DNA from: Bdellovibrio sp.
GTDB taxonomy: Bacteria; Bdellovibrionota; Bacteriovoracia; Bacteriovoracales; Bacteriovoracaceae
Length of the DNA: 62,611 nucleotides
Reading direction: 5' to 3'
Assembly: GCA_016187935.1 (NCBI GenBank)
Contig: JACPIU010000036.1
Span: forward strand, 1 to 62,611
Within the stretch, counting starts at the first letter, position 1; the number at the start of each line of letters is the position of its first letter. The notes below the pieces were generated by a model. The model was not told where the DNA came from. It did not search any database and saw nothing but the letters and a program-made list of their open reading frames with translations. This document shows positions 29,901-59,109 of this stretch, piece after piece. The translations under genes and the position numbers were made by a program.

Positions 29901-31397
29901 CAACGTTTGAAAAGTCATCACATCCAAAGCATTATGACCAACTCCAATCCAGAGACAGTTTCCACCGATTATGACAGTTCCAACCGTCTCTATATCACCC
30001 CTCTTTTTACGGAGGATTTGTGCGAGATTTTCCGCCATGAAAATGCCGAAGGTATTATCGCATCTTTCGCCGGCCAAACCGGCATTAAAATTCGTGAACA
30101 TTTTGAACGTGGTTTTCGACGAGATTTAATGTCTTTCAATTTTCTTGGACCATCTTATGATGCCGTCGATATCACAGAGAACCGTGAACGTTTCAGTACT
30201 CTGACCGCATCCGTAGACCTGGCGCGTACCAAGAGCATGCTGGTGAAAGGTCATAAGAATCTGCTCAATGCGATGACCGAGATAGGGCTTCCCGTTATTA
30301 TTCGTCCGAGTTATGTGATCGGCGGGGAATCCATGTACATTTTTAACCATCATGAAGATATCAACCATCTTCCCCCTCAAATCAAGCAACAATTAAAACT
30401 CTCATCATCCGAATTTTTGGTGGAGACGTACCTTCGCAATGCCATTGAATACGATGTGGATTTAGTTCGGGATAAGTCCGGGAATGTGATTTTTACCGCC
30501 TGTGAACACATCGAACATGCCGGTGTCCATAGCGGAGATTCAGGAATGTTTGCCCCTCCCCTGATTCTCACTCAACGCCCATACAAAAAGTTGATGGAAA
30601 TTACTAAAAAATTGGCGAACGACTTGGAAATTGTAGGACCCATTAATTTCCAATTTGCCATAATCGAAAACGATATTTATTGCATTGAAGCTAACCCGCG
30701 CGGTTCACGCACTTTGCCGTTTTTATCTAAGGCCTATAACTTGAATATCCCCGCATTAGCAACTGATGCCATGCTGGGATTACATGTGACTCCTTTTGAA
30801 CGAGAATCGTTCCCCTACTTTAGCGTCAAACAATCGACCTTCCCCTTCGATCGTTTTATCCAAGACAACATCATCTTAGGCCCAAAAATGCGATCGACCG
30901 GTGAAACGATGGGTATCGACAGTGACAAAGACCATGCCGTTTTTAAATCTTACCTTGGCAACTATCCAAAACTTTTTGGCCCGGGAAAAATTTTGATTTC
31001 ACTGGCCGACCAGCAAAAAGCGGTTATTTTACCCTATCTTCGATCACTGATTAAGAAGGGCCATCAATTCATGGCGACGCAAGGCACTTTTGATTATATC
31101 AGAAAGCAGGGAATTCCTTGTACTTTGGTGGCCAAAATTGGGACAGGCGAAGAAAATAACGGCAATCCGACAATTTTAGAGGCCATGAAAGACGAGCAAC
31201 TCAAAATGGTTCTCAATACTCCCGCCAATCTCGGACAATCAAAGTCGGATGGTGAAGTCATTCGCAACACGGCCATCCTTTACGGTGTGCCTTGCTTCAC
31301 CAGGGCGGAAAATATACGGGCCATTCTTGAGGCCATATTAAATACTGACCATTTTCCAGTGCCAATGGCATTACAAGATTTGTACAAGGAGCTTTAA
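26961..31397 (+). CDS. carAB: Fused carbamoyl-phosphate synthase (CarA-CarB in one chain)
   Basis: One 1,478-residue chain carries both subunits. Residues 1 to ~380 are CarA, with its N-terminal domain and a class I glutaminase (GICLGHQL, catalytic Cys ~260; FHPE). From about residue 400 comes CarB, with the first ATP-grasp half (LIGSGPIKIGQASEFDYSG) and the second half (VMGSGPNRIGQGIEFDYS). The C-terminal MGS-like allosteric domain (about 1330-1478) completes it. Length equals CarA plus CarB plus a ~20-residue linker, so nothing is missing. Glutaminase and synthetase parts are joined as in eukaryotic CPS II. AAGGAGAAGG precedes the ATG, 20 bases after pyrB. Confidence 0.96.
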   Translation: MPTTELPTLNDVDFLRSLKKSRIFLHFSDGTTFRGFINKDPNDPMIKKGIWGEAAFTTGMSGYEETATDPSFLGQHIIYTMAHVGNYPSEPKVRQSKKCHATALIARNFSYNEFLATQDIPLVSGIDTRALTRFMTKGRDHHSILSLDPRAPKREAFLNAPYIYNDLHRVSQEQQQVLRAGEHPIVVINYGVKDAILSELYKLNLPLVTVPHNTSAKDILNCHPSLIFLTNGPGDPRSYKQEIQVVSELLKTTIPIRGICLGHQLITLALGAKIIKLPFGQRGANHPVFDHVTGKILITSQNHGYAADYDSIKNLATSVSSSAPLITHTSLFDHSVEGLALPSGKVKSVQFHPEANPGPRDALGFFQEIHDYLRGNVASLQKEALHLLPQYYKKGDRHIPYKKILLIGSGPIKIGQASEFDYSGTQALKALGELGLEVVLLNSNPATIMTDPEMCAKTYIEPITKETVKYIIKKEKVDAIISTMGGQTALNLCVELEEENFLREHQVTLLGAGVSTIKRTEDRTLFAQEMDKLGYKAGKRFIAHSEEEAIRLAQTTAGFPLIIRRDFALGGRGSALTHNLQELQEVFTTDIKFPITLEKSLVGYKEIEMEVMVDCEQNGVIICSIENVDPCGVHTGDSITVAPALTISDHCLQTMRDMTLKIARYMGVVAGGANVQFAVHPNNEEDITVIEMNPRVSRSSALASKATGYPIAKISAQLAVGLTLKEILNDITRVSPVAFEPTLDYVAVKIPIFPFSKFPTSSTILGPQMRSVGEVLALGGSFNEAFLKALRSLEMGLEIPSLAQLSTTPLDITPEYIRDRLQNPHQLSLLTVLEALRLKISKEEIADLSKISPWFINQMAVIYNSEEEFKKIDTPLKDVETFRPFKEIGFSDKYLAFLKDLPQKKILEYRIKEKIFPVFKAVDTCAGEFTAETPYFYSTYSEQNEAGPLSLNGRSVIVMGSGPNRIGQGIEFDYSCVKACQRLKSHHIQSIMTNSNPETVSTDYDSSNRLYITPLFTEDLCEIFRHENAEGIIASFAGQTGIKIREHFERGFRRDLMSFNFLGPSYDAVDITENRERFSTLTASVDLARTKSMLVKGHKNLLNAMTEIGLPVIIRPSYVIGGESMYIFNHHEDINHLPPQIKQQLKLSSSEFLVETYLRNAIEYDVDLVRDKSGNVIFTACEHIEHAGVHSGDSGMFAPPLILTQRPYKKLMEITKKLANDLEIVGPINFQFAIIENDIYCIEANPRGSRTLPFLSKAYNLNIPALATDAMLGLHVTPFERESFPYFSVKQSTFPFDRFIQDNIILGPKMRSTGETMGIDSDKDHAVFKSYLGNYPKLFGPGKILISLADQQKAVILPYLRSLIKKGHQFMATQGTFDYIRKQGIPCTLVAKIGTGEENNGNPTILEAMKDEQLKMVLNTPANLGQSKSDGEVIRNTAILYGVPCFTRAENIRAILEAILNTDHFPVPMALQDLYKEL

Positions 31398-35380: not shown

Positions 35381-38300
35381 ATGTCACAAAAAAACACCCC
35401 TAAAATGCTTTTGATCTTGAGTGTTGCGATATTCATTGGCTGCGCCAAGGAATTACCAATTCAAGAGTCGGACGATATAAAAGACAACGTCATGGCATTA
35501 ACTCTCTTCAACGAAGAAGTGGAAATAGAAACTTCAGGAAACCAGATGATGGCATACAACGACCTCGATCTCGGGCAAGTTGTTGCCGTTAACGAAAAAA
35601 AACTCACTAATGTTGCTTTGACCAAAGGGCCCAAGGAACTGGCGCCACTTTTCAAAGATCTTCGGATTGAAAGCGAAAGTGTTGGAACGCGATTCAAGGT
35701 CAGCTTTCAAATTTCAAAGAATTATCTTGTTGCCGCCATAGATACCAATGGTGAAACCCTTTCAGGACATTCCGCGGAACTTAGCAATAACACAAAATTC
35801 ATTCCCATTTTTCAATTTCCCATTGATGCCTTTGGAATTAAACGCCGTGTGAAAAATTCTTTGGGAGAGGAAACCCGCACGGTCGAATTTGTAAGTACAA
35901 ACAGAGATTCTGCTACCCACATTAGGGTACCAACGCTGCTGTCATCGAGAAAACTTGCCGGCCTCTTTGCCAAAACACCGGAGGAACAATCCAAAGTTTT
36001 CCTGAAAACAAAAGTTGAAAATCGAGTCTGGCGTGCATTCCAAGTGCGTCGACTGGTCGGCAATGCTTCGATATTAACAGCCTCACCTTCCGGTGACAAG
36101 GCCTATCAGGATGATGATGTCGTACGGCTTAAAATCTTCGGCGATATTATTTATATCTATCGCCCTATCGCATCCAAGAATCTCACGGAAGTTGAGCAAC
36201 AAGCAGAACGTTTTGGACTTCCTATTCGGACCCTCTTGAAATGTGATGAAAGGGTTTCCAAAGCAGCAAAAATAGATGAAGCGCAATGTTTTCTCCGAGC
36301 TGAATTCAAGATTAACGTTTCTCCGGTTATTTTAAAACGAGATGAGGATGATGATGGTTCGCTTCTGGCAACCGCTTCGCTCTCATCTTCTGTTGACCAT
36401 AACCAGACTCGTCTTATTCGTCTCGATAATAATTCCTTTGAAGAGGCGAAACTCGAAATTGCAAGCGTTTTACCTTTTGGAACAGAACTCATTTTAACTA
36501 AAGCAAAAGATGTTGATCTAAATTCTGAATTCTTATATGTCCCTTCGACTCATGGTACGCCAAGAGAAGTGGTTGCCGCTGACCCTTTTTTCCAGGGTGA
36601 TGAAAAAATCGTCAAATTCAGATGGTTCGAAGATGGATTGCGTATTTACGAAATGGAAAAGGACGGTCGATTCACTGAAAACGATCTGAACAATGCTCCC
36701 GTACTCACAATTCCAGGAAGACACGTTGAATGGCAATGCGCCAAGGACCGTCAAGGCGTGTGTGTTGGGGGATTATCTGAAAACTCTCAAATTCCATGGC
36801 AGCAACGTCAATTTTTCATTCCCAACTTGGATAATATACAAGTTCAAGAGGTAAACAAGCTTAACATTTTTCAGGCCAATGATAGTTGCGTCCGCAATAC
36901 CGCTTCGAGAAAAACTCATCATGAAATAAAATCCGGTGTGTTTAATATTGAGTTGGAACGAACCTTTGAAGTTAGCAGTGACTTCTCCTGCATCATCGAT
37001 CTATTTTTCTCAGATAATTTAAAAAGTGCCTCCTTTAATGTAAAGTATTTTTACTCAATCGTCCGTTTGGGTTCTCTCATCTCCCCCGATTACGAGACGG
37101 TATACTATCCGATTACAGAACATGACGACTTCGGCTTCTTTAAAGATGAAGATTTTCGTCTCAATGACATCTATGATACGCGCCGAATGATTCAGAATTA
37201 TTATCTGAATCGCTTCAACCCTAAAAAAGGCACCATTAAGTATCACTTAAGTAAATCTTTTGATCGCCCGGAAAATCTCTTTTTAAAGGAAAGTACATAT
37301 AGGGTTGTTGAAAACATCAACAAATCCCTTGCCGCTTCCGGAACCAGCATGCAGTTGGAACTGGTGAACCCATCTGAAATCTTCCCCGGAGATTTGCGTG
37401 CCAATTCCATTGTTCTCATTGACGATCCTCTCGATAGTGGCCTTTTGGGTTACGGTCCAAGTGTCTCCAATCCGCGCACGGGTGAAATTGTTCAAGCACA
37501 CGTTAATATGTACGGTGGGGTTCTAAGAACGATGACCCGACATGTCTATCGAAGTATGGTTGATCTTTCCATTAAAAATAAAGGGACAGCTTCAATTATC
37601 GACATTGCCGACAATGCGGTCGTCGATTCTGTAACTCAAAGGGATTCCCACCCAAGAAGTCGTGCTACATTTGAAGAGAAAATGGCCCGGGTAAATTTGG
37701 AAGAACTCACAAAAAGAACAAACCTTTTCACTTCAAATCGTATTACAACAAGAGTGCAGAAACTTCTCAAAGATCGACTTTTGGCAAAGGTCGAGGCATC
37801 AACTCCCGCAGTATCTCATGGGGAGATGATGCATCTTTATGGACGTTCTGAGAGGGATCTGCGCTTACCTCCAGAGCATATGACCGAACAAGATTTGAAT
37901 TCGCTCATGTCTAAAAAAACCCCTTATGAAAATATGCTGGAACGCTATTCTAAGCATTGTGCTTATCACAAAGATTTCGTGAATATGACAATGTTTGAAA
38001 AGGCCTATATTAAGGGTATCAGAGACATTGAAGGAATTTTGAATGAAGATGGAACCCTTAAGAATTGGGATGAATTATCTTCGACGCAACAACTTAAGGC
38101 CACTGAGTTAATTGTTGGTCATGTTTATAGAACGACCTTAACTCATGAACTCGGCCATAACCTCGGCCTGCGCCATAATTTTATCGGCTCGGCCGACCAG
38201 AAAAACTTTTACACCGAAGAGGAATCAAAGGCGTTAGGTCTTGAATATGTCCCACAATATTCTTCCATTATGGACTATGGGTATAGTGAGCTAAACGAAT

Positions 38301-40045
38301 TACCTATATTTGGTAAATATGATATTGCCGCTTTCCGCTTCGGCTACGCCAGAAAAGTTGAAGATGCTGAAGGAAACTTGTTGGAAATTGCGCCTGGAAA
38401 GACCTTGACGGATTTAAAGAAAGAATCCGGAGTTAAGATTCGAGATTTTGAATTCTGTACAGACGAAAATGCAGGTCTTTCAGTAAAATGTAACCGTTTT
38501 GATGAGGGGGCCACAATTACAGACATTGCTCGTCATTATATAGATTCATACAAAAGTGCCTATAAATATTCAAATTTCAGAGATGGTCGCAATGAATTTT
38601 CTACCTACGGGATCGCAAATTATTTAATGTGGAAGGCACAAGAATTTAAAAGCATGAGACGAGTATTCGAAGAATCCGAAGCATTTGGAGCCATTTTTGG
38701 TCATGAAACTATGTCTGTGGGTTGTTCGCCTGATGAATTGGCGAAATACCCTATCTGCAAGGAAATCAACGATCGTCGAGATGCCACTAAATTGGTCGGT
38801 GAGTTCTTCATTGAAGTCTTAAAAACACCAGACTTGACTTGTGCTTTGGCCAAAGCTGAAGAGCCGACAAAAATCGTAGAACTTCGTCCCTTCCTGTCGA
38901 TTTACAATAAAATGAAATACAACACAGAAAAAACCTTAATTACATCTTGCTTTGATGCCGACATTAAAGATTCTCTGGCAAAAGATGAATTGATTGTCAT
39001 TGCTGAAGGTGGAAAATCAGTGAGCAGTTTTAAAGGGACTGATCCACAGTACAAATACAAATCTGATATCGATGTGCGAGGAGTATGGCCAGATAAACTC
39101 CTGGCCATGCGTGCCCTGACAACTCGGCAGTCAGATACTGGCTCAACCGAAGATATTCAACGAAGCTATATAGAATCCAGTGCTGTCGCTGCTGCTTTAC
39201 AAAACTTCTTTGAGCACATACTTCTCGGTAACGATTTGAAAAATCCTATTCCTTTTCATACCGAAGATGGTTCTCTTGCAAAATTGTCCTATCAGCTCGA
39301 TGCTGATAACTACACTATTCCCGAACAACCACATTGGTATCCCATACGTTACTTTGGGTTGCCATTAAATGACTCAACTTACTTAAATCAAGTGATGCTA
39401 AAAGTCGCGCTTCGGGAAAATCTGACCTCAGATACTGAATATCGTGAAGATTCACAAAATTTCGTGAATTCCATTAGTGTTATCAAACGGCCATCTTCTG
39501 AAGTCTTATCAACACAGAACATGGTTTCGACCAGCATTGGAAATACAACCTATGCGGCCAATGAAGGCCTGTCCTTGGCCTATACCATGGTGTCTTCAAT
39601 CGAGGCCTTACCCTTCTTGAACTCTCTCGCTCCCGTCGTTGTCTTAAAGGTTCTGCAAAACAGAATGGACCCGCCTATTCCAGATGGTCTGAGCGAAGAT
39701 GAAAAAATCGTTCTGGGAATGGATGCGGACCTCCTTGCTCAAATTATGCAAATCACGGCCAAAGGAGTTGTTCTCAAAGAGGAAGACATGGTTGCCCGTT
39801 TTGGGCCAGAACTTGGACATAAAATCTTCTTGGCAAACTCCTTAGGTATTGAAGGTCTTCAGAAGATAATCACGATTAAGAATTCACTCGGTAAGGCCCC
39901 GGCCGATGCCACACCGGAGGAGAAAAAATTGTATGCCTTAAATCTTGCAATCCTGGAAGATTTTGTGACGGGATCATTGGAAGCGAAGGCCGAACTCTAT
40001 ACAAAAAAGCTTCCCCTCATGCCGAGGGCCTATATTTCTGAATAA
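35381..40045 (+). CDS. Large metzincin-type zinc metalloprotease lipoprotein
   Basis: 1,554 residues. The signal peptide has a lipobox (IFIGCA), so the protein is lipid-anchored. The catalytic motif THELGHNLGLRHNF, with zinc ligands at about 922, 926 and 932, matches HExxHxxGxxH, and the Met-turn SIMDYG follows ~40 residues later. This is the pattern of the DUF5117/DUF4953 metallopeptidases. The ~900 residues before the active site are beta-rich with no recognised domain. Roughly 590 residues follow it. Substrate unknown; an envelope or prey-directed role is inferred from location only. Confidence 0.88.
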   Translation: MSQKNTPKMLLILSVAIFIGCAKELPIQESDDIKDNVMALTLFNEEVEIETSGNQMMAYNDLDLGQVVAVNEKKLTNVALTKGPKELAPLFKDLRIESESVGTRFKVSFQISKNYLVAAIDTNGETLSGHSAELSNNTKFIPIFQFPIDAFGIKRRVKNSLGEETRTVEFVSTNRDSATHIRVPTLLSSRKLAGLFAKTPEEQSKVFLKTKVENRVWRAFQVRRLVGNASILTASPSGDKAYQDDDVVRLKIFGDIIYIYRPIASKNLTEVEQQAERFGLPIRTLLKCDERVSKAAKIDEAQCFLRAEFKINVSPVILKRDEDDDGSLLATASLSSSVDHNQTRLIRLDNNSFEEAKLEIASVLPFGTELILTKAKDVDLNSEFLYVPSTHGTPREVVAADPFFQGDEKIVKFRWFEDGLRIYEMEKDGRFTENDLNNAPVLTIPGRHVEWQCAKDRQGVCVGGLSENSQIPWQQRQFFIPNLDNIQVQEVNKLNIFQANDSCVRNTASRKTHHEIKSGVFNIELERTFEVSSDFSCIIDLFFSDNLKSASFNVKYFYSIVRLGSLISPDYETVYYPITEHDDFGFFKDEDFRLNDIYDTRRMIQNYYLNRFNPKKGTIKYHLSKSFDRPENLFLKESTYRVVENINKSLAASGTSMQLELVNPSEIFPGDLRANSIVLIDDPLDSGLLGYGPSVSNPRTGEIVQAHVNMYGGVLRTMTRHVYRSMVDLSIKNKGTASIIDIADNAVVDSVTQRDSHPRSRATFEEKMARVNLEELTKRTNLFTSNRITTRVQKLLKDRLLAKVEASTPAVSHGEMMHLYGRSERDLRLPPEHMTEQDLNSLMSKKTPYENMLERYSKHCAYHKDFVNMTMFEKAYIKGIRDIEGILNEDGTLKNWDELSSTQQLKATELIVGHVYRTTLTHELGHNLGLRHNFIGSADQKNFYTEEESKALGLEYVPQYSSIMDYGYSELNELPIFGKYDIAAFRFGYARKVEDAEGNLLEIAPGKTLTDLKKESGVKIRDFEFCTDENAGLSVKCNRFDEGATITDIARHYIDSYKSAYKYSNFRDGRNEFSTYGIANYLMWKAQEFKSMRRVFEESEAFGAIFGHETMSVGCSPDELAKYPICKEINDRRDATKLVGEFFIEVLKTPDLTCALAKAEEPTKIVELRPFLSIYNKMKYNTEKTLITSCFDADIKDSLAKDELIVIAEGGKSVSSFKGTDPQYKYKSDIDVRGVWPDKLLAMRALTTRQSDTGSTEDIQRSYIESSAVAAALQNFFEHILLGNDLKNPIPFHTEDGSLAKLSYQLDADNYTIPEQPHWYPIRYFGLPLNDSTYLNQVMLKVALRENLTSDTEYREDSQNFVNSISVIKRPSSEVLSTQNMVSTSIGNTTYAANEGLSLAYTMVSSIEALPFLNSLAPVVVLKVLQNRMDPPIPDGLSEDEKIVLGMDADLLAQIMQITAKGVVLKEEDMVARFGPELGHKIFLANSLGIEGLQKIITIKNSLGKAPADATPEEKKLYALNLAILEDFVTGSLEAKAELYTKKLPLMPRAYISE

Positions 40046-49163: not shown

Positions 49164-49803
49164 AGTGAAAAATGAAGTGGCCGTATTGAAAATAAATATT
49201 GGCAATATACTGCCTCATAAACTTTTCGGCGCTTGCAAGCTGTTCATTTTCACCAGCGCCGGTGCCCGCTGATGGTTTCTGTATCGAGGGCAATTGCCCT
49301 AAGGAAAATCGATCACGCAATGAATATTCCATCGCAATAAGATTTTGCTGAAATTCACTTAAAGGTGTCGTCTTAATTTTTCGCAGACAATCTTTGGAAA
49401 GCTGAGGTTTATTATTTAAAAGGCGGGTACGTTCAGCACGATCTATGTGATAGATCCCTGTTTCACGAAAATGCCTGTCTAATTTATTAATGATTAACAA
49501 ATTAAAAACATCGCGTTCCACACCACGCATTCTCGGCCAATTTTTAATAGTGCTCAGGGATTCTGTATATCGTTCAGGTAATATCTGATCCATAGACAAT
49601 AAATAAGAATGCTCAAAATAACACCTAATTATTTGTAACTTCGGGATTTCACTTAAAAAACGTTTTTCAAAGAAAACCTGATCACCGATTCGCACAAAAG
49701 CGCGATCTTCTAAGACGATTTCGGCCTGGACTTGCCCAACTAAGAAAATCAGAAGGAGAGCGAAATTTGCTCTAAACCGGGGAAGTAAGATCCACGTTAC
49801 CAA
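49153..49803 (-). CDS. Exported protein of unknown function
   Basis: With the TTG start at 49803 (AGAGG upstream), the protein begins with a Sec signal peptide (Arg, hydrophobic core, cleavage near GQVQA-E). The segment just after, EDRAFVRIGDQVFFEKRFLSEI, loosely resembles the start of SurA-like chaperone domains, but no PPIase domain is visible. The frame is open upstream to 49929, which would put a long non-signal extension inside the regulator gene. It overlaps the regulator by 32 bases. Confidence 0.6.
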   Translation of the reverse strand: MVTWILLPRFRANFALLLIFLVGQVQAEIVLEDRAFVRIGDQVFFEKRFLSEIPKLQIIRCYFEHSYLLSMDQILPERYTESLSTIKNWPRMRGVERDVFNLLIINKLDRHFRETGIYHIDRAERTRLLNNKPQLSKDCLRKIKTTPLSEFQQNLIAMEYSLRDRFSLGQLPSIQKPSAGTGAGENEQLASAEKFMRQYIANIYFQYGHFIFHYAP

Positions 49804-51088
49804 TAGGCCCAGCCTCTTCTGCGCGGTTTTCAATATGGAAACGTATTTTGACACGAGGATTAAATGTATATCCATCCTTTCCTCTGATAATATATTTTCT
49901 CTTTTCACCTTTACCATTTTTTGGCTCAATCAATTTTCTTAATCGGCTCACTGAAGTGTAAATCAGTTTATCATGAATGAGCGGATTATACTCGTCTTTC
50001 CAAATAGATTTGGCCAATTGTTCTTTATCAAAATACTGCCCTGGATTTTTGGCCAGAAGGAATAAAATCTCTAGAAGTACAAAGCGATGTTTAAAATCGA
50101 TTGTTCCAAGACCTTTTTCAACAATCTGCCTATTGGTCCGATCAAGATAAATATCTATGCTTGCATCATGAACATCCTCAATTTCTGAACGAATTAATCG
50201 CTGCAGGCGCTTAAAATCCCGAGAACATGTCATTTGCTGGGAGAGGCTAAAATAAACTAAACTCTTTTCATATTCGCCCAGTCGTTTGCACAAAGACCCC
50301 ATGCCAAGAAGCACGTGCCCGAGGGAGTTCCAGCATCTTTTTTCTTGAAATTTAACGAGAGATTGAGAGTAATAATCCATGGCCCGTTCCATCTGACCTA
50401 ATTCAACATAAATGCGTCCATAATAAAGCAGCATTGAGGCCTTCAAATAGGATTTATCAATAATGCTTAGGACTTGTTCTAACTGGTCAAGATAACCTAA
50501 GGCAAGGTCGTATTCTTTTTGGTAGTAACAAGTAGAAGCCAAGGCCAACAAAGTCTTGGCCAACAAATCGGGGCCATTTTCCTCTTTAGATTTTTTGCAG
50601 GCCAGCTCAAATTGCCCTCGTGCGTCCCTGAAGGCCCCCCGATAAGTTTTTGTCAGTCCAACATTGTAAAAATATTCGGCCCCCAAACTGCCTAATACAG
50701 AAGTAAGTTGATCAATAACAAGTTCGCTCTCGCGAATATATTTCTCTGCAAGTTCAGTCTGCACCTGCTCTGAACAAATACGAATTAAAAAACCATAAAT
50801 TTTAAACAAACCATAGAGATCGCGGGGTCGCTCTGAATGAACAATGGCGTTCTCAAAACACTGCCGGGCCTTTTCCAGATCGGCCTTATCATAATAAACT
50901 TTACCTATTCGATAGAATGCCCGTCCAAGATCATGAACGCTCAGCGCGCCTATTTCGGCACCAGGAATCTCCTCGTTGTGCAGGTAATTAACCAGTACAT
51001 CAACAACCTCTTTACCGACCTTCTCGCCGTTATATTCTAATTTCTCTGTGAGGCCTATCTGTAGGTTCGATTCTTGGGCAGGATTCAT
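49772..51088 (-). CDS. TPR-repeat regulator with C-terminal winged helix
   Basis: Residues ~40-290 are helical pairs of tetratricopeptide type (for example GRAFYRIGKVYYDKADLEKA and MLLYYGRIYVELGQMERAM). The C-terminal ~100 residues are an OmpR/PhoB-type winged helix: VLLEILFLLAKNPGQYF, then the DKLIYTSVSRLRKLI recognition helix and the YIIRGKDGYTF wing. There is no receiver domain, so the TPR part probably takes the signal by protein contact. The ATG at 51088 follows GAGGGA. It is divergent from the ddl-led cluster and may control it (inference). Confidence 0.82.
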   Translation of the reverse strand: MNPAQESNLQIGLTEKLEYNGEKVGKEVVDVLVNYLHNEEIPGAEIGALSVHDLGRAFYRIGKVYYDKADLEKARQCFENAIVHSERPRDLYGLFKIYGFLIRICSEQVQTELAEKYIRESELVIDQLTSVLGSLGAEYFYNVGLTKTYRGAFRDARGQFELACKKSKEENGPDLLAKTLLALASTCYYQKEYDLALGYLDQLEQVLSIIDKSYLKASMLLYYGRIYVELGQMERAMDYYSQSLVKFQEKRCWNSLGHVLLGMGSLCKRLGEYEKSLVYFSLSQQMTCSRDFKRLQRLIRSEIEDVHDASIDIYLDRTNRQIVEKGLGTIDFKHRFVLLEILFLLAKNPGQYFDKEQLAKSIWKDEYNPLIHDKLIYTSVSRLRKLIEPKNGKGEKRKYIIRGKDGYTFNPRVKIRFHIENRAEEAGPIGNVDLTSPV

Positions 51089-51168
51089 ACACACTTTCCC
51101 TCAAAAAACCCGCAAGACATACCATGTTAAAAGGCTGCGAGTCAAAGTTAACTCTATACCATCACCTT

Positions 51169-51196
51169 TTTACATGGGATTTCATTGATTTATATT
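51169..51196 (+). promoter_or_regulatory. Candidate promoter of the ddl-led cluster
   Basis: TTTACA, a 16-base spacer, TATATT. The predicted start is near 51203. A perfect inverted repeat ACCCT-A-AGGGT (51209-51219) sits immediately downstream, where a repressor would act. Confidence 0.45.
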
Positions 51197-51262
51197 TTGC
51201 AGGTTGGTACCCTAAGGGTTATTTTCACTTATGAAACAATAACTTATGAATGGGGGACGGCC

Positions 51263-52294
51263 ATGGCAAAGAGGCCTTCAATCCTAGTTGTTTATGGCGG
51301 TGGTGGAACCGAGCATGAAGTCTCTATGATTTCAGCTAGATACATCATCGAGACGCTCCGAGACGAACTATCAATGGATGTGTCTGAGGTCCTCATCGAT
51401 CATAAAGGTCTATGGAATTATAAAAATTCCGGTGGAAACGAAATCCCCTGTTTCTTGAAACCAGGCAAACTGCTCTCAGTACAATTCGAGGATGGCATCA
51501 AAGATATCGCAATTGACTTGGCCGTTCCATGCATCCATGGCCCACCCGGGGAAACTGGCGAAATTCAATCGCACTTCGGTATGTATGGCATCCCCTTCCT
51601 TGGTGCGTCTCCCGAAGCTTCAATAATTTGTTTTAATAAGGTAAGTACTAAACTTTGGCTGGATGCTCTCAATATCCCAAATACCCCATTTATTTTTCTT
51701 GATGCTTTAAGCGAGAATAACCTTCAACGGGCCTGTGATTTTTTCCAGAAAAGCGGTAAACAACCAGAGGTTTTTGTTAAGGCCAGCAGTCAAGGTTCTT
51801 CAGTTGGATGTTACCCTGCTAGCAGCTTGTCGGAACTTAAGACCGCCCTCACTTCGGCATTCCAGTATTCTCCTTACGTTTTAGTCGAAAAGCGACTCCA
51901 AGCACGAGAATTAGAAATCTCTGTCTTTGAATATAAGGATGAAATTCACACCTCGTATCCAGGAGAAATTGTCTGTCCCGGTAAGTTCTATTCGTATGAA
52001 GAAAAATATTCCTCCAACAGTAAAACAAGCACTGTTCTTCGCGCCCAAAATCTGACCACTGCCCAAGTTGAACAGATGCAAAATTACGCCAAAAAGGCCT
52101 TTCTTGGATTAAAAATTAGACATCTCTCCCGAATAGATTTTTTCCTAACGGACCATCAAGAAATTTATATTAATGAGATCAATACATTCCCAGGCCTCAC
52201 ACCCATCTCCATGTTCCCAAAAATGATGGAGGCCTCAGGAATCACTTTCGCAACATTTTTAAAAGATGCTATTCAGAAGTCTCTTAAAAGTTAA
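51263..52294 (+). CDS. ddl: D-alanine-D-alanine ligase family (ATP-grasp)
   Basis: ATP-grasp ligase. The N-terminal GGGGTEHEVSMIS corresponds to the GGxSxEHxVS signature with Ser replaced. FVKASSQGSSVG (ATP loop), YPGEIVCPGKFYSYEEKY (omega loop) and the metal-binding INEINTFPGLT are all present. The default role is D-Ala-D-Ala synthesis for peptidoglycan. It heads a run of amino-acid-modifying genes, so another dipeptide product is possible. The ATG at 51263 is supported by GGGGGACGG; upstream in-frame codons look spurious. Confidence 0.88.
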   Translation: MAKRPSILVVYGGGGTEHEVSMISARYIIETLRDELSMDVSEVLIDHKGLWNYKNSGGNEIPCFLKPGKLLSVQFEDGIKDIAIDLAVPCIHGPPGETGEIQSHFGMYGIPFLGASPEASIICFNKVSTKLWLDALNIPNTPFIFLDALSENNLQRACDFFQKSGKQPEVFVKASSQGSSVGCYPASSLSELKTALTSAFQYSPYVLVEKRLQARELEISVFEYKDEIHTSYPGEIVCPGKFYSYEEKYSSNSKTSTVLRAQNLTTAQVEQMQNYAKKAFLGLKIRHLSRIDFFLTDHQEIYINEINTFPGLTPISMFPKMMEASGITFATFLKDAIQKSLKS

Positions 52295-52315: not shown

Positions 52316-55300
52316 ATGACAATAAATATTATAAATAGCGATGATGAAAAAAAGGGCAAAGCCAAACTTGAAAAATACTATGCCGAAAATTTGATTCCGG
52401 CGGAGAAAAAACCTTACGTCACGGCCCTGCGCAAATCCGTAGGACCCTATATGGCGCTCGAAAGCGCCAAGGAAGGTTCGGTCGCCTATATGCAAGATGC
52501 TGCAAGTCAGATTGCCACTCTTGGCTTGGGTTTCAATCCCATGTCTTTTTTTGGGACCGCTCACTTTCTAGAGTCGTGGGGAAATTTATCCCATACTCAC
52601 TCCTTCCAAGAATTGCGTAATGCCTTCACACAATTTCTCACCCGTCAGCTGGGTTGGAAAAATGTTTTCTTTCGCATCGGCCATTCTGGTGCCGAAGCCA
52701 ACGAGATCGCCTTAGGGGAATGTTTCCGCAATCGTCACAATAAACGGGCCAAACATGTCTTGGCCTTTGAGGGATCTTTCCACGGCAGAATGATGGTTAC
52801 CCTCAGCGCCACATGGAATAAGGCCAAACGTGAACCCTTTGAGTGGCCTGGTTTTTCTACTGTCTACTGTTCCTCGCCCGATCTTCCAGATGAATCCATT
52901 CATCAACCTATACCCAAAGACTGGCGGCAAAAATGGGAAACTTCCCCTAATCTGAACTGGGAAGCAACTCCAGAATGGAGTGTTGATCTGCAAACTGCGA
53001 GAGAGGTACAAACTCTACAAAAAGTTCGAGAGCATCTTCTTTCAGAAGAGATTTTTGCGATCATTATTGAGCCGATGCAATGCGAAGGTGGCGATCGCTA
53101 TCTATCCGATCGTTTTTTCACCGCACTTCTGTTGATGGCACGCTCTTGTGGAATCCCGGTCATCTTAGACGAAGTCCAAACCGGTTTTCATTTAGGCCGC
53201 GAATTTTTTTGGCACCGACAATTAAAATTACAGGATCAGTTAGGCAACGCACTCGTACCCAATTACGTAGTCTGTGCTAAAAAGGCCCAGGTCGGTCTGG
53301 TCATTTCCAACACTCCTGTTGATCTAACCTGTGAAGAATTTCAGGTGGCATCGTTTATTCGAGGAACAATTCACGCTCAAATGCTGGAGCAATCACAAAA
53401 GGCCATTTGGGAATTAGAGCGAGATGTCAGAAATTTACTCATTCCACTTATCTCTAAATATAGTGAATTCATTCATCGTCCTCGCTGCAATGGCATGGCC
53501 TTCGCGTTTGATGTGAGATCTGAGGAATTTTTTAATAAATTTATCGACATCCGTTTTCCCCACGGTCTCCTGTATTATAATGCCGGCACACATACAATGC
53601 GTTTCAGACTCAATCTCGCTTATGGAAAAGAAGATCTCCAGTTTCTCTTCAGTGAACTGGATAAAATCTGCGCCGAACTGTTTTTACAAGCGTCTCCAGT
53701 GTTGCCAAAGCAGATCAATCGAGATGTGCAAACTGTGGATACTCTCTATCAATGGCACGAGTTCTTGCTGGCCCTGAAGCTGGACTATTTTCAAGGTAGG
53801 GACATCAACGTCACGGAGACTTGGAATAAGGGAATATCGTTAATTAGGGTTCCCGAAGGGTATCAGCTCACACTGCTGAATCACCACAACTTTAAACGAT
53901 TCGCAGAATCTATCGACCTACTCCAAAAGAATATCTATGAACCAGATCGCCAAGCATCTCTGGCGGCCTTTGAAATGACTGCCAAAGATGCCAAGGGAAT
54001 TGCCATTGTCATCTCAAAGGATAGTGATAAAGATAACAGCAAGGATACTAAAATTGCCGCCATGACTTTCGCTTCCCCGCTTAAAAATTATCCCTTGGTA
54101 AGAGGCGTTCGTAGAGATCCCTATTTTAACGATCCTGATTGTTATTATGTAATCGATACTACCGTGGCCCGCGAATTTCAGCGAGCAGGACTGGGACACT
54201 CATTAAAATACGCTTTGACCCTGGCGGCCTTGCTCAAAAGAGCAAAACGCATCAATGGTCGAAACCGTCACATTATTGCAAAATCGATGTGGAATATTAA
54301 TCTATCGTTAGGTAGCTATGAACTCGATTACATCCGTGAAGATAGTCCCGACTTTGCTGACAGTCGTGATGTCACCTACTATACCATGCCAGCACAATGG
54401 AACCGGCCGCCTCTGCATCTTTGCACGGCCCTTCCTTCTCCCCTCGGTGTAGGTGATTTGGCGCATGATTTTATCACCAAAAATCTTCATAGCATGGTCA
54501 ACAAAGTTTGCCTGTCAAACTTTGTCAGCGAGAGCTATCTCGAAAATTTCAAATTCTTAATTTCCCTTGCACCTCCTTTCCTCCAGCATGCATATTCCTG
54601 CAGTGGACAGGCCGAGTGTGCCGATAAAATCGCCAAATCTTTTTGGTACAATACCAAAAAAAATATCAAGAATATTACTTTTGAAGGCCATTTTTTCGGG
54701 CACGGAAGCTTTTTTGCAAGAAGTTTAGGTCAATTTCATTCCCCCTATTTTCCCGTTTCAATTCTACCAAACCCAACGGAAGACAATTGGGAGCAAGTGC
54801 TTCAATTAGTGCAGATGGAACTTGAACAAACTAATATCATGGCAGTATGGCTTGAACCTATTCGCCAGCGGTACATGGATGCAGTCCCAATAACGTTCTT
54901 AAAACAACTCAAAGAACTCTGTAGCAAATTCAATGTCCCCTTGGTTTACAATGAAACGACCTCTTCCTTTTTCCGTTATCAGAACGAACATTTTTTTGCC
55001 GCTAACAATCCCGAAATTTGCCCCGACGCATTTATGACATACGGCGGAGGTCAAATTGGCGCGGTATGGATGCGACAGGATCTCTATGTCTCAAAACCCC
55101 TTATGCTCATCAGTACATGGGATGGTGACGAACTTTCGCTCGCCACATATACCGAATCAATTCGACATGTTTTAAGTAAAAAACATGAATTCCATGAAAT
55201 CAGAAGAATTTTCAATGCCATTTTAATGAATACCCTTAGCGAATGCCGCGTAAAAGATGTTCATCTGGGCCTTGGTTATGGGCATTTCATGGGAATTGTT

Positions 55301-55468
55301 CCCACATCGTTGCAGCATTTATTTTCAAAAGTTTGTATTCCAGATAATGATGAAATTATGCACACTCGTTATCTCATTTGTCCCAATTTTGATAGCATGC
55401 TGCAATTTATTCGCAAAATCGGAAACTCTTCCGAGGAGAATGACGGGGCCAATAATGCAATTCACTGA
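52316..55468 (+). CDS. Aminotransferase - GNAT - pseudo-aminotransferase fusion
   Basis: Three domains in 1,050 residues. The N-terminal class III aminotransferase (~20-460) has SGAEANE, EGSFHGR, DEVQTGF and CAKKAQVG (PLP Lys at 322/323); the KKxQV and FHGR contexts resemble L-lysine 6-aminotransferase. A GNAT acetyltransferase domain follows (~490-700; FQRAGLGHSLKYAL acetyl-CoA loop). A second aminotransferase fold (~710-1030) has lost both the PLP Lys (YGGGQIG with no Lys before it) and the PLP-pyridine Asp (NETTS in place of DEVxT). It lies 21 bases after ddl and overlaps the next gene. I know no characterised protein with this layout. Confidence 0.85.
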   Translation: MTINIINSDDEKKGKAKLEKYYAENLIPAEKKPYVTALRKSVGPYMALESAKEGSVAYMQDAASQIATLGLGFNPMSFFGTAHFLESWGNLSHTHSFQELRNAFTQFLTRQLGWKNVFFRIGHSGAEANEIALGECFRNRHNKRAKHVLAFEGSFHGRMMVTLSATWNKAKREPFEWPGFSTVYCSSPDLPDESIHQPIPKDWRQKWETSPNLNWEATPEWSVDLQTAREVQTLQKVREHLLSEEIFAIIIEPMQCEGGDRYLSDRFFTALLLMARSCGIPVILDEVQTGFHLGREFFWHRQLKLQDQLGNALVPNYVVCAKKAQVGLVISNTPVDLTCEEFQVASFIRGTIHAQMLEQSQKAIWELERDVRNLLIPLISKYSEFIHRPRCNGMAFAFDVRSEEFFNKFIDIRFPHGLLYYNAGTHTMRFRLNLAYGKEDLQFLFSELDKICAELFLQASPVLPKQINRDVQTVDTLYQWHEFLLALKLDYFQGRDINVTETWNKGISLIRVPEGYQLTLLNHHNFKRFAESIDLLQKNIYEPDRQASLAAFEMTAKDAKGIAIVISKDSDKDNSKDTKIAAMTFASPLKNYPLVRGVRRDPYFNDPDCYYVIDTTVAREFQRAGLGHSLKYALTLAALLKRAKRINGRNRHIIAKSMWNINLSLGSYELDYIREDSPDFADSRDVTYYTMPAQWNRPPLHLCTALPSPLGVGDLAHDFITKNLHSMVNKVCLSNFVSESYLENFKFLISLAPPFLQHAYSCSGQAECADKIAKSFWYNTKKNIKNITFEGHFFGHGSFFARSLGQFHSPYFPVSILPNPTEDNWEQVLQLVQMELEQTNIMAVWLEPIRQRYMDAVPITFLKQLKELCSKFNVPLVYNETTSSFFRYQNEHFFAANNPEICPDAFMTYGGGQIGAVWMRQDLYVSKPLMLISTWDGDELSLATYTESIRHVLSKKHEFHEIRRIFNAILMNTLSECRVKDVHLGLGYGHFMGIVPTSLQHLFSKVCIPDNDEIMHTRYLICPNFDSMLQFIRKIGNSSEENDGANNAIH

Positions 55469-56561
55469 TCAAAAACACCCTATTATTTACTATCCGAAAG
55501 GAAAATCCCCATATGAGTGGGGAAAACTTCATGGTGAGTCGGTTCGTGCAGGTATCCAGGAACTGGCACAAATTCGTAGAGATTTGATGCTCAAAAAAAA
55601 TCCTGCTCTCAATTCCAAGCTTCACGAACTCGCTCGGCAACAATGGGATGCCACCCAAAAATTTGCCCCTGCTCTCGCCTTGGAGTTGGAAGGTCTCATC
55701 CTAGGTGCTAATCTGACCATAACAGATATCGTGATTCTCAATAACTATACTGATTTTCGTGATATTATTCCTGATCAAGGATGTTCATCTGCCGCGATCA
55801 AGCGCAACAAACAAATGTATGCTGGACAGACTTGGGACATGCATCGAACGGCGAAAAATTACATCTGCACAATAGTTGTTCCTGAAACTTCAAATACCCC
55901 AGGCCAAATTGTACTCTCGCTCGTCGGCTGCTTAGGCCTCATGGGGGTGAATCAACATGGTATGTTTATCGGTGTGAATAATATTAATACACTTGGAGCT
56001 AAACCTGGAGTCGTGTGGCCGGCACTCGTCCGCCAATCATTATGCCGCTCCAATTTTGAAGAAATGCGCCATCTGATGACCAGCGCACCAGTGACTTCGG
56101 GTCATAATTATTTATTGGCCGATTCCCAAATCGCTCAGCATTGGGAAATTACTCCCGATGTCAAAGAAATGGTCTCAAAGATTGAGACCGAACAAAACGA
56201 TGGCACCATTTTTCACACCAACCATTGCATGTCACCAAAAGCGAAGTCCCTTGAAGATGCCAACTCTTTGAGTTCAACAACTTTTTCCCGCTGGAATCTA
56301 TTAGAGCAACAGCTTCCCAAAATTGAAAATTCTTTTGGGCTTTTGAGTGTTTTCACTTCTCATGAGAACCATCCTAAGGGCATCTGCAGCCATTTTGAAA
56401 GCGGCCTCCAAGACCCCTCGTTTACCTGTGGTGGTGGTGTCTATGATTTTCGCAGCAAGATCTTTGCCGTTTGGCGAGGCTGTCCTATGCATGATGAGAA
56501 CTATGTTCATTATGAGTTCGACCTGAGCACCCTGAGTTTGCTTAAAACTATCAAAAGGTAA
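55455..56561 (+). CDS. Peptidase C45-type acyltransferase/amidohydrolase
   Basis: Resembles acyl-CoA:6-aminopenicillanate acyltransferase, an Ntn-hydrolase family. The nucleophile Cys is in DQGCSSAAI (Cys110), followed by GQTWDMHRTA, GVNQHGMFIGVNNI and FHTNHCMS. Such enzymes self-cleave before the Cys and hydrolyse or swap N-acyl groups. The frame is open upstream, but the ATGs at 55440 and 55455 near the preceding gene's end are the realistic starts; the latter is used, giving a 14-base overlap. There is no signal peptide. It probably deacylates an intermediate in this cluster (inference). Confidence 0.8.
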   Translation: MQFTDQKHPIIYYPKGKSPYEWGKLHGESVRAGIQELAQIRRDLMLKKNPALNSKLHELARQQWDATQKFAPALALELEGLILGANLTITDIVILNNYTDFRDIIPDQGCSSAAIKRNKQMYAGQTWDMHRTAKNYICTIVVPETSNTPGQIVLSLVGCLGLMGVNQHGMFIGVNNINTLGAKPGVVWPALVRQSLCRSNFEEMRHLMTSAPVTSGHNYLLADSQIAQHWEITPDVKEMVSKIETEQNDGTIFHTNHCMSPKAKSLEDANSLSSTTFSRWNLLEQQLPKIENSFGLLSVFTSHENHPKGICSHFESGLQDPSFTCGGGVYDFRSKIFAVWRGCPMHDENYVHYEFDLSTLSLLKTIKR

Positions 56562-56565
56562 TTGT

Positions 56566-57741
56566 ATGGATTTTCCCTTTCTGTTCACTTGGTCAAAACA
56601 AAAAGATGCCACTCATTTTAATTTAAAAGAAGTTAAAGACCACCAGATCATTCTCGAGTCTGGCCAGCGCATTTTTGATTTAACCAGTATAAGTTTTCAG
56701 GCCTCTTTCGGTTTAAAAAACCAACAAATTATCAATCCAATCATTGAACAGCTCCGCAACGTTCCCATGACCTCTCCTAAAGCGATTTTTCCTCTGAAAA
56801 CAGATGTCACTAACAAACTTCTCGACCTTATTAATCTAGGCGGCAAGATTTTTTATACGGTTTCAGGTGCTGAATCAATCGAAAATGCCATTAAAATCGC
56901 TCGCCAGTTTACTGGGCGTAATTTAATTCTGGCCCGTCGTAAATCTTATCATGGTGCCAGCTTAGGCGCTCTTTCCATTACAGGAGATTGGAGAAATCAA
57001 GACCACTTAACCTTAAGTGATTATACTGTCCGAATTCCGGAGCCCGATGATGACCCTGATCTTGAGGAAACCAGAAAAATAATTTTAAAGGCCGGTCCAG
57101 ATAAGATTGCTGCTTTCTGCCTGGAAACAGTTTCCGGCGCTAATGGTGTCTATATTCCTGCCGCGAAATGGTGGCATGGTATTCAAAAACTATGCAACGA
57201 ATTTGGCATTAAACTCATTCTGGATGAAGTTGTATGCGGTTTCTATCGCACAGGTCGCGCCTTTGGTTTTTTACATTTTCCCGTAAAACCTGATTTCATT
57301 TGTATGGCCAAGGCCATCTCAGGTGGTTATGTTCCTTTTGGTGCGCTATGGGTTTCTGACGAATGCGCCCGTTCTTACGATGATAAAATCTTAAGCTGCG
57401 GTCTTACAAACTATGCTCATCCCCTCGGGCTGGCGGCATTAAGCGGTGTTTTGGCATTAACCTCCTCCATGGAATTTCAAAATAAATTACGCAATTTAAT
57501 CCCTCATTTTTCCAACCAACTAAACGAACTAAGAGATCTTCCTGAAGTGACAACTATTCGCCATATTGGAATGCTGGCGGCCATTGAACTGAATAAATCA
57601 CTTTCTTTTGATTCCGTTTTCCAGCAAGGTGCATACGCCCTTGCTAAAGATAAAATGCTGATTTTGTGTCCTGCCTTAACTTACGGAATAGATGAGCTGA
57701 CCACTGCCATGCGAGTCATTCGCAAGGTGATTACGGCATAA
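56566..57741 (+). CDS. Class III aminotransferase (PLP-dependent)
   Basis: All catalytic motifs are intact: VSGAESIENAIK, SYHGASLG, LILDEVVCGFYRTG (Asp for PLP) and MAKAISGGYVPFG (PLP Lys249). The family transaminates omega-amino groups; it resembles 4-aminobutyrate/YodT-type enzymes, but the substrate is not readable. The length of 391 is normal. It starts four bases after the C45 gene and 29 bases before the CoA-transferase genes, so one operon. Confidence 0.9.
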   Translation: MDFPFLFTWSKQKDATHFNLKEVKDHQIILESGQRIFDLTSISFQASFGLKNQQIINPIIEQLRNVPMTSPKAIFPLKTDVTNKLLDLINLGGKIFYTVSGAESIENAIKIARQFTGRNLILARRKSYHGASLGALSITGDWRNQDHLTLSDYTVRIPEPDDDPDLEETRKIILKAGPDKIAAFCLETVSGANGVYIPAAKWWHGIQKLCNEFGIKLILDEVVCGFYRTGRAFGFLHFPVKPDFICMAKAISGGYVPFGALWVSDECARSYDDKILSCGLTNYAHPLGLAALSGVLALTSSMEFQNKLRNLIPHFSNQLNELRDLPEVTTIRHIGMLAAIELNKSLSFDSVFQQGAYALAKDKMLILCPALTYGIDELTTAMRVIRKVITA

Positions 57742-57770: not shown

Positions 57771-58460
57771 ATGAGTAAAATCTGTCGAGATGCTTTTGAG
57801 GCCCTGAGCGGAATTAAATCAGGGATGACACTGATGAGCGGAGGCTTTGGATTATGTGGAATTGCGGAAAATTGCATAGACGCTCTTAGCATGATTGACG
57901 TTAAGAATCTCACTGTCATTTCTAATAATATTGGAAATTCAGGCCGTGGTTTAGTGAAAATCCTTGTCCAAAAAAAAATTCGTAAGGCCATTTGTTCTTA
58001 TGTCGGTGGCAATCCAGACCTGGAAAAGCAAATTTTTTCAAAAGAAATTGAGGTGGATTTAGTCCCTCAAGGGACATTTGCTGAACGCATCCGAGCTGGT
58101 GGCATGGGAATTCGTGCTTTCTATACTCCCACAGGATATGGCACCATCGTGGCAGAAGGTAAGGATGTAAAAGTTTTTGATCGACCATGCATTCTTGAAA
58201 CTGCACTTACGGCGGATTTCACCATCATAAAAGCGCAAAAAGGCGATTCTTACGGCAATCTGTGGTTTAAAGAGACGGCACGCAATTTTTCTCCACTCAT
58301 GGCCATGGCCGGAAAAATCACCATCGTTGAGGTTGAGGAACTCGTCCCACTAGGCGCGATCCCACCTGAGGATGTTCATCTTCCTGGGGTGTTTGTCCAA
58401 AGAATTTTTCAGGGCAAAAATTATAAAAACGATATTGAATTCTTAAAACTCAAAGAGTAG
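57771..58460 (+). CDS. 3-oxoacid CoA-transferase subunit A
   Basis: Alpha subunit of a SCOT/AtoD-type CoA-transferase. GGFGLCGIAEN and SNNIGNSGRGL at the N-terminus and RAGGMGIRAFYTPTGYGT are typical. Moves CoA between short-chain acids such as succinyl-CoA and acetoacetate. It has a strong AAGGAG ribosome site. Position after two aminotransferases and a C45 hydrolase suggests the acid comes from amino-acid breakdown. Confidence 0.93.
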   Translation: MSKICRDAFEALSGIKSGMTLMSGGFGLCGIAENCIDALSMIDVKNLTVISNNIGNSGRGLVKILVQKKIRKAICSYVGGNPDLEKQIFSKEIEVDLVPQGTFAERIRAGGMGIRAFYTPTGYGTIVAEGKDVKVFDRPCILETALTADFTIIKAQKGDSYGNLWFKETARNFSPLMAMAGKITIVEVEELVPLGAIPPEDVHLPGVFVQRIFQGKNYKNDIEFLKLKE

Positions 58461-58488: not shown

Positions 58489-59109
58489 ATGGCGTGGTCA
58501 AAAGAAGAAATGGCCTTTGAAGTAATCAACATGCTCAATGATGGTGCCACTGTGAACTTAGGTATCGGCATGCCAACTTTGGTGGCCGAACTCATGCCTT
58601 CCACAAAAAATATCATGATTCAAAGTGAAAATGGAGTCATGGGCGTAGGCGAGCGTCCTACCGCCCAAACTGTCAGTCCAACTCTGATCAATGCAGGAAA
58701 AGAAACCATTACAGTTATTAAGGGGGCCAGTTTTTTTGATAGCTCCCTAAGTTTCGGGATGATTCGCGGCGGTCATATCGATTATTGTATTTTGGGTGGG
58801 ATGGAAGTGGATGTTGATGGCAATCTCGCCAACTGGATGGTGCCTGGTCAAAAGATAACAGGGATGGGTGGAGCGATGGATCTGGTCAACGGAGCAAAAC
58901 AGGTCATCATTATGATGTCCCACTTCAATAAGAATGGGACATCAAAGTTCGTTACGAGATGCCAACTCCCCCTAACAGGTACCAACGTCGTCGATAAGGT
59001 AGTGACGGAATTGGGAGTTTTCTCTCCTGCAATGGGAAAATTTAAAATTATTAAATTAGCATCGGGCACTACCAAGGAATCATTGGGTGACAGTACGCTC
59101 TACATCTAA
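58489..59109 (+). CDS. 3-oxoacid CoA-transferase subunit B
   Basis: Beta subunit carrying the catalytic Glu in IQSENGVMGVG (Glu47), which forms the glutamyl-CoA thioester. GIGMPTLVAELM and the C-terminal LASGTTKESL region are typical. The length is 206. AAGGAATAGG precedes the ATG. The stop codon overlaps the convergent Sm-like gene by four bases (CTAA). Last gene of the cluster. Confidence 0.93.
   Translation: MAWSKEEMAFEVINMLNDGATVNLGIGMPTLVAELMPSTKNIMIQSENGVMGVGERPTAQTVSPTLINAGKETITVIKGASFFDSSLSFGMIRGGHIDYCILGGMEVDVDGNLANWMVPGQKITGMGGAMDLVNGAKQVIIMMSHFNKNGTSKFVTRCQLPLTGTNVVDKVVTELGVFSPAMGKFKIIKLASGTTKESLGDSTLYI

Follow-up and report, generated by a model that had tools for sequence, protein, structure and literature searches.

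We suggest that a protein encoded in a 62,611-nucleotide stretch of Bdellovibrio sp. DNA (contig JACPIU010000036.1, hereafter the window) is a single-chain class III aminotransferase pseudo-dimer with one active site and a built-in acetyltransferase, and that it acts in acetyl-protected beta-lysine catabolism. The gene is a single open frame with an ATG start at 52316-55468 of the forward strand, to which all coordinates below refer unless stated otherwise. Its 1050-residue product consists of an aminotransferase domain (AT1), a GNAT acetyltransferase domain and a further aminotransferase domain (AT3), in this order. AT1 would carry the pyridoxal 5'-phosphate (PLP) and perform the transamination. 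AT3 would be a former subunit that has lost PLP binding and is kept for the dimer interface and for a loop, STWDGD, with T934 of which it would complete the PLP-phosphate site of AT1. We hold this, with the contact, activities and substrates that it proposes, to be the best explanation as a whole and rather likely to be correct.

Domain architecture and the two aminotransferase halves

AT1 (residues 1-457; 52316-53686) is matched by Pfam Aminotran_3 (PF00202, E 2.8e-38 for the whole protein, best stretch 59-302), and its predicted fold follows Mycobacterium tuberculosis lysine epsilon-aminotransferase (LAT, 2jje) over residues 12-456 of the model (Z 32.9, 396 residues aligned, root-mean-square deviation 2.5). 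A helical linker, delimited by DSSP of the model (residues 458-516; 53687-53863), leads to the GNAT domain (residues 517-692; 53864-54391) and further to AT3 (residues 701-1036; 54416-55423). AT3 also has the class III fold (best Z 30.6, again to LAT, with 338 residues aligned and a deviation of 3.1, in a model of GNAT plus AT3). Its sequence is supported by NCBIfam aminotransferase matches in the C-terminal part of the protein and by a profile match to PDB aminotransferases (E 3.9e-17). LAT heads the structural lists of both halves with acetylornithine, 4-aminobutyrate and omega-aminotransferases within about 2 Z units, therefore the fold match names no substrate. By sequence, the best PDB matches of AT1 are 4-aminobutyrate aminotransferases, and the protein does not reach the L-lysine 6-transaminase equivalog TIGR03251 (97.4 bits versus a cut-off of 520.8).

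The GNAT domain is recognised by the order of its elements in the model, b1-a1-a2-b2-b3-b4-a3-b5-a4-b6-b7 (DSSP, order read by eye), and by the motif QRAGLG (residues 622-627; 54179-54196), which fits the Q/RxxGxG pattern and which we take to be the acetyl-CoA loop. Two homologues match Pfam GNAT, L075 (PF00583) with E 1.8e-7 and L093 under the curated cut-off. AblB (TIGR03827) was tried as an identity for this domain and rejected, with no profile match in the open reading frame in a scan of its own genome to E 10; the profile-profile probability is 76.8 to AblB versus 60.2 to a RimI-like GNAT. A true AblB exceeds the cut-off in 4 of 17 other protein-positive genomes of the window's family, and the AblB-like gene of the window's own genome is weak (111.5 bits, under the cut-off) and lies in an unrelated context.

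Relatives were collected at no fewer than 74 loci, and the protein was recovered in 68 of these; at L088, L090, L092, L102, L106 and L113 there was no protein match because another frame had been kept. The homologue alignment has 66 rows, 48 from these loci and 18 from an alignment A1. Twenty of the 68 loci were left out, eight as apparent repeats of aligned loci (L047, L048, L051, L052, L055, L061, L064, L066), eight as partial proteins (L070, L071, L073, L074, L076, L078, L097, L110) and four as short single-domain frames of 394-445 residues (L115, L116, L117, L119). Counts for AT3 are made on 65 rows, domain 3 of L098 being unreadable, and 49 of these 65 were used for a further alignment, A2, and for the GNAT plus AT3 model. 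The titled records belong to three phyla, Bdellovibrionota, Myxococcota (or 'Deltaproteobacteria') and Planctomycetes.

Conservation in the two halves is strikingly asymmetric. AT1 keeps the aspartate expected at the PLP pyridine (D285 in DEVQTG; 53168-53170) and the PLP lysine (K322; 53279-53281), for which we take the first of the two lysines in AKKAQ, in all 66 homologues; E257, R158 and R431 are equally invariant. At the corresponding positions AT3 has N879 (54950-54952), which falls on the D of the DE motif in the alignment with acetylornithine aminotransferases, and G910 (55043-55045), placed by ungapped comparison with AKKAQ of AT1. An aspartate occurs at the former position in 0 of 65 homologues (N 36, V 16, I 4, S 3, H 2, C 2, G 1, F 1), and the latter holds ten residue types and never a lysine (0/65). 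Since they are held across all 65 homologues in which domain 3 can be read, these losses are more than chance. The GNAT loop is less strictly kept, with G627 in 66/66 rows, G625 in 58/66 and Q or R at 622 in 56/66. A preliminary description of this gene, made from its sequence, had the order aminotransferase, GNAT, aminotransferase with both PLP residues in the N-terminal domain and neither in the C-terminal one. Pfam, the fold matches and the secondary structure of the model bear this order out, the GNAT call is correct by fold and loop, the motifs that it quoted are found (SGQAECAD from S763, GGGQIGA from G910), and no homologue has an AT3 with intact residues.

The partner loop is distributed in the opposite way. 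In class III enzymes a loop threonine (T353 of pig 4-aminobutyrate aminotransferase, T330 of LAT) binds the PLP phosphate of the other subunit. The ISTWDGDE stretch of AT3 aligns with STFGGN or TTFGGN of acetylornithine aminotransferases, so that T934 corresponds to the threonine of STFGGN. This STW(D/E)GD loop (residues 933-938; 55112-55129), which should extend as far as the phosphate of the PLP in AT1, is nearly invariant: S933, T934, W935, G937 and D938 are present in 65/65 homologues and D936 in 64/65. These first five also make up half of the ten residues that are invariant throughout AT3 in alignment A2. In AT1 the segment between K322 and the next helix is variable and gapped with no conserved threonine in the alignment; which position corresponds to T934 is ambiguous, S346 being reached at the same distance from K322 while the profile alignment has a gap there. 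Past this loop S346 is kept in 61/65 rows, and we speak of decay of the AT1 partner loop because the loop preceding S346 is unconserved. AT1 thus keeps its own PLP residues without the partner loop, AT3 the reverse, and this is the pattern expected of a one-active-site pair. Right behind the decayed loop stand R349 and G350 (53360-53365; both 65/65 in this comparison and 66/66 in the homologue alignment), which could face the empty AT3 pocket under pseudo-symmetry.

Two AlphaFold2 models were made, one of the full chain from 18 sequences (mean predicted local distance difference test, pLDDT, 89.6; predicted template-modelling score, pTM, 0.92) and one of GNAT plus AT3 from 49 sequences (pLDDT 90.9, pTM 0.88). 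A pTM of 0.92 over three domains indicates a confidently predicted relative placement. One chain hence holds two fold-type-I PLP folds with a PLP lysine in AT1 only. The earlier proposal that the dead half acts as a built-in dimer partner agrees with the asymmetric conservation and with this placement; the direct AT1-AT3 contact is the part of it that we infer. As that proposal also had it, AT3 might in addition keep the GNAT domain in position.

Other roles of AT3 are less probable. Aminotransferase-like domains sense ligands in MocR regulators, and AT3, conserved though it lacks catalytic residues, might likewise be a regulatory domain in whose vacated pocket a pathway metabolite tunes GNAT or AT1. 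However, half of the invariant AT3 residues lie in the loop for the partner's PLP and the positions of AT3's own Asp and Lys vary without restraint, and we regard such sensing as improbable. That AT3 is a mere structural scaffold for GNAT, or a decaying remnant without catalytic role, would agree with the missing catalytic residues and with its ratio of nonsynonymous to synonymous substitution rates (dN/dS), which in the three unsaturated pairs (dS 0.64-0.87) is 0.225, 0.215 and 0.244, somewhat above the 0.149, 0.188 and 0.169 of AT1; dS either reaches at least 1.4 or is undefined in the remaining four pairs. Nevertheless, AT3 is under purifying selection and its STW.GD loop is unbroken over three phyla, which makes this reading very unlikely. 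Class III enzymes usually form homodimers or tetramers, and one might imagine AT1-AT1 homodimers in which the two AT1 copies serve each other and AT3 pairs elsewhere; AT1 has, however, lost the conserved phosphate loop that such mutual service would require, and we give this arrangement very little credence. Coming back to the pseudo-dimer, we note that profile comparison gives E 1.7e-17 between AT1 and AT3, 2.1e-15 between AT3 and the second, stand-alone aminotransferase of the operon (see below) and 2.4e-25 between AT1 and that enzyme. Descent of AT3 from AT1 is not demonstrated by these values.

The operon and the proposed route

Four genes follow on the same strand. The first (55440-56561) encodes an autoproteolytic acyltransferase-hydrolase of the C45 or AAT type, a candidate deacetylase (PF03417, E 2e-11; NF040521, 160.5 bits versus a cut-off of 85), with the nucleophile cysteine present in 41/41 aligned rows. 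Its start was moved from 55257 to 55440 by start-codon comparison; this start, most likely the true one, stands behind GAGGAGA and overlaps the end of the aminotransferase gene. Next come a second, stand-alone class III aminotransferase (56566-57741; PF00202, E 1.1e-56), nearest to taurine, omega-amino-acid and BioA-like enzymes in NCBIfam and PDB, and subunits A (57771-58460; TIGR02429, 243.9 versus 128.5 bits) and B (58489-59109; TIGR02428, 274.5 versus 243.55 bits) of a 3-oxoacid CoA-transferase, whose best PDB matches are the succinyl-CoA:3-ketoacid transferases 3rrl and 3cdk. The neighbourhood was compared in 21 stretches, the window and 20 others, two of them from one genome and several stopping at contig ends. 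C45 is present in 19, the same-cluster class III aminotransferase in 18, subunit A in 17 and subunit B in 16. Even L043 and L044, which are distant relatives, have C45 next to the protein, and in the vicinity of the L043 gene there is also a thiolase, together with a more distant CoA-transferase pair.

An aldehyde dehydrogenase is linked to the protein in other lineages. Among the matches listed, it forms an N-terminal domain of the protein at 15 of 68 loci, and at L075, L105 and L111 it has a gene of its own beside the protein; in the window's own family no adjoining aldehyde dehydrogenase gene was seen. Because the dehydrogenase is fused or adjoining, the product of AT1 is probably a semialdehyde, and AT1 would therefore act on a terminal amino group. 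The four dehydrogenases scanned (L081, L087, L109 and L075) score best with AstD models (TIGR03240, 313.6-393.2 bits, under the cut-off of 579.3), and less with the succinate-semialdehyde dehydrogenase model TIGR01780 (199.4-231.2 bits) and with NF006916 (226-260.4 bits). Genes similar to the L075 dehydrogenase are widespread (46 of 59 genomes at E <= 1e-60).

The link to lysine comes through KamA. The window's own genome encodes a KamA-family protein elsewhere (G000:C7:34440-35795), which passes the broader model TIGR00238 (250.6 versus 199.2 bits). In 46/46 aligned rows KamA keeps CxxxCxxC and two aspartates at the positions of D293 and D330 in clostridial lysine 2,3-aminomutase (2a5h), which presumably bind the lysine side chain and which, as we understand it, glutamate mutases lack. 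Its orthologue (E <= 1e-150) is present in 18/18 protein-positive genomes of the family, the window's own included, versus 3/19 protein-negative ones (Fisher P 8.7e-8 over 37 genomes, uncorrected for kinship or incomplete genomes). Among 28 further protein-positive genomes of unstated kinship, which we chose from the at least 74 loci, 23 have KamA at >=48% identity, two of these split over contigs. In a Pirellulales locus (L063) and a Pirellulaceae locus (L108) kamA is the fifth gene, two past the second aminotransferase and behind one CoA-transferase subunit gene.

Hence, we suggest that the protein probably works in an uncharacterised lysine-breakdown route, with acetyl-protected beta-lysine catabolism as its likely role, judged from the enzyme families involved. 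The GNAT domain would acetylate beta-lysine at one of its amino groups and thereby keep the semialdehyde or keto acid formed next from cyclising. Its partners would be lysine 2,3-aminomutase, the C45 deacetylase, the second aminotransferase, the CoA-transferase and a thiolase, and the overall outcome would be conversion of lysine, via beta-lysine, to acetyl-CoA and a C4 product.

Two orders of these steps can be drawn. In the one that we slightly prefer, N3-acetylation comes first: N3-acetyl-beta-lysine would undergo omega-transamination by AT1 and oxidation of the aldehyde, followed by deacetylation by C45, beta-transamination by the second aminotransferase to 3-oxoadipate, CoA transfer and thiolysis. 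We prefer it because three successive steps are then fused in one chain, the dehydrogenase is AstD-like and the gene order fits, and we rate it tentatively, a little under an even chance. The more specific proposal, that the pseudo-dimer chain (with the dehydrogenase in front in Myxococcota) performs consecutive N3-acetylation, omega-transamination and oxidation in a new route via 3-acetamidoadipate and 3-oxoadipate to succinyl-CoA and acetyl-CoA, is possible and, taken in full, rather unlikely.

The same architecture could also serve a route beginning with N6-acetyl-beta-lysine as the GNAT product. The stand-alone aminotransferase would then give 3-keto-6-acetamidohexanoate, the CoA-transferase and thiolase 4-acetamidobutyryl-CoA, and C45 would free acetate and CoA to leave 4-aminobutyrate for AT1 as a 4-aminobutyrate aminotransferase and, further, for succinate-semialdehyde dehydrogenase. 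Degradation of beta-lysine by acetylated intermediates is known from enzymology of the 1970s-80s, and in Pseudomonas Barker's group is said to have described it via N6-acetyl-beta-lysine and 4-aminobutyrate; the enzyme classes would match that route, and Bacillus subtilis yodT-S-R-Q-P-kamA, one for one. The 4-aminobutyrate aminotransferases that head the PDB sequence matches of AT1 suit this order too, as does the action of C45 relatives on acyl-CoA and amides. Against this, the scanned dehydrogenases are nearer AstD than succinate-semialdehyde dehydrogenase models, TIGR01780 is above its cut-off in 0 of 59 genomes (weakly telling, other aldehyde dehydrogenases being abundant), the GNAT, an early step, would be joined to the last steps, and the gene order departs from the route. 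We consider the N6 order a real possibility, held with less confidence than the N3 order. The type of CoA-transferase does not separate the two, and neither does the co-occurrence of aldehyde dehydrogenase genes. A search of the open-access literature by names and EC numbers returned nothing on the transaminase and deacetylase of an acetylated beta-lysine route.

For the pseudo-dimer acting in beta-lysine breakdown as a whole, a number of observations pull the other way. KamA of the window's genome stays under the lysine 2,3-aminomutase equivalog TIGR03820 (279.8 versus 525.4 bits). The three family genomes with KamA outside the protein-positive set lack the protein, and among the 28 further genomes KamA is only distant (32-35%) in G062, G063, G064 and G082 and has no family match in G081; G056 has the protein and C45 and no KamA at E <= 1e-20. 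The operon genes examined in the window include neither a thiolase nor an aldehyde dehydrogenase, no Pfam or NCBIfam GNAT model matches the window protein, and we know of no substrate assay of these proteins. The homodimer-like packing of AT1 against AT3, too, is inferred, which counts on the same side.

If the proposal is true, the protein would show neatly how a homodimeric PLP enzyme can become a single-chain hetero-pair in which only one site works, and what a partner subunit contributes could be tested on it. It would also provide candidate genes for beta-lysine degradation through acetylated intermediates.

Other genes around the operon

Upstream, a D-alanine--D-alanine ligase gene (51185-52294; NF002527, 335.4 versus 310 bits) is a conserved neighbour in 16/21 stretches and is probably functionally unrelated to the operon. 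A threonyl-tRNA synthetase-like gene (e.g. L029 7173-8918) lies upstream of the ligase gene in 11/21 stretches and in none of the three from the window's genus. Divergent from the operon, on the reverse strand, 49772-51094 encodes a protein with TPR matches and an OmpR-type winged helix (Trans_reg_C, PF00486, E 9.7e-10), present in 17/21 stretches, which is possibly a regulator.

Elsewhere in the window, a 1478-residue gene product (26961-31397) is a fused carA and carB, with glutamine amidotransferase and small- and large-chain carbamoyl-phosphate synthase domains, and a 1554-residue protein (35381-40045) has a weak match to a Met-zincin metalloprotease (PF16313, E 3.9e-8). In another stretch of the same genome, L174 (G000:C15:31500-46500), a frame at 8703-9908 resembles by eye a group II intron-type reverse transcriptase amid RHS-repeat-like fragments, and an intron may interrupt an RHS gene.

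Comparison with known systems

Among pathways, one close likeness is to yodTSRQP-kamA of B. subtilis, in which an aminotransferase, both CoA-transferase subunits, a deacylase, a GNAT and lysine 2,3-aminomutase are also found together. Unlike in the window, these are separate genes, the deacylase is of the M20 type and not C45, and there is neither a pseudo-dimer nor an aldehyde dehydrogenase. The arginine succinyltransferase (AST) pathway shares the logic of amine acylation, omega-transamination, AstD-type oxidation of a semialdehyde and removal of the acyl group, but with a different substrate and acyltransferase and with unfused enzymes. One study lists KamA and YodT of B. subtilis as SigE-dependent (PMC6522883), and another has the known anaerobic lysine route begin with KamA too, but run through 3,5-diaminohexanoate (PMC3149608).

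At the level of the protein, the solved structures that come closest to AT1 in fold and sequence include those of LAT (Rv3290c) and 4-aminobutyrate aminotransferase. Unlike the window protein, these enzymes are stand-alone homodimers with two active sites and have no GNAT or dead partner. Two other PLP systems pair a working with a dead half. Glycine decarboxylase (GLDC, the P-protein) belongs to another PLP subfamily, catalyses another reaction, has its dead half at the N-terminus and carries no GNAT, and LCB1/LCB2 of serine palmitoyltransferase are two chains of the alpha-oxoamine synthase family. What GLDC has in common with the window protein is one chain with two fold-type-I halves and a PLP lysine in just one of them, the human enzyme being reported to have a glutamine at the lysine position of its N-terminal half (PMC7259800). 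LCB1/LCB2 are likewise a homologous pair with one proposed active site; hLCB1 is reported to be without the PLP lysine, and other residues of it are predicted to participate (PMC3794620).

The preliminary description had called this domain order undescribed. Searches of the open-access literature, with most subscription journals outside their scope, returned nothing matching AT1-GNAT-AT3 and agree with it on this point, although pairs of fold-type-I PLP domains in which one half is dead were already known. What is novel here is the class III family, the GNAT placed between the halves, the fusion with aldehyde dehydrogenase and the proposed pathway.

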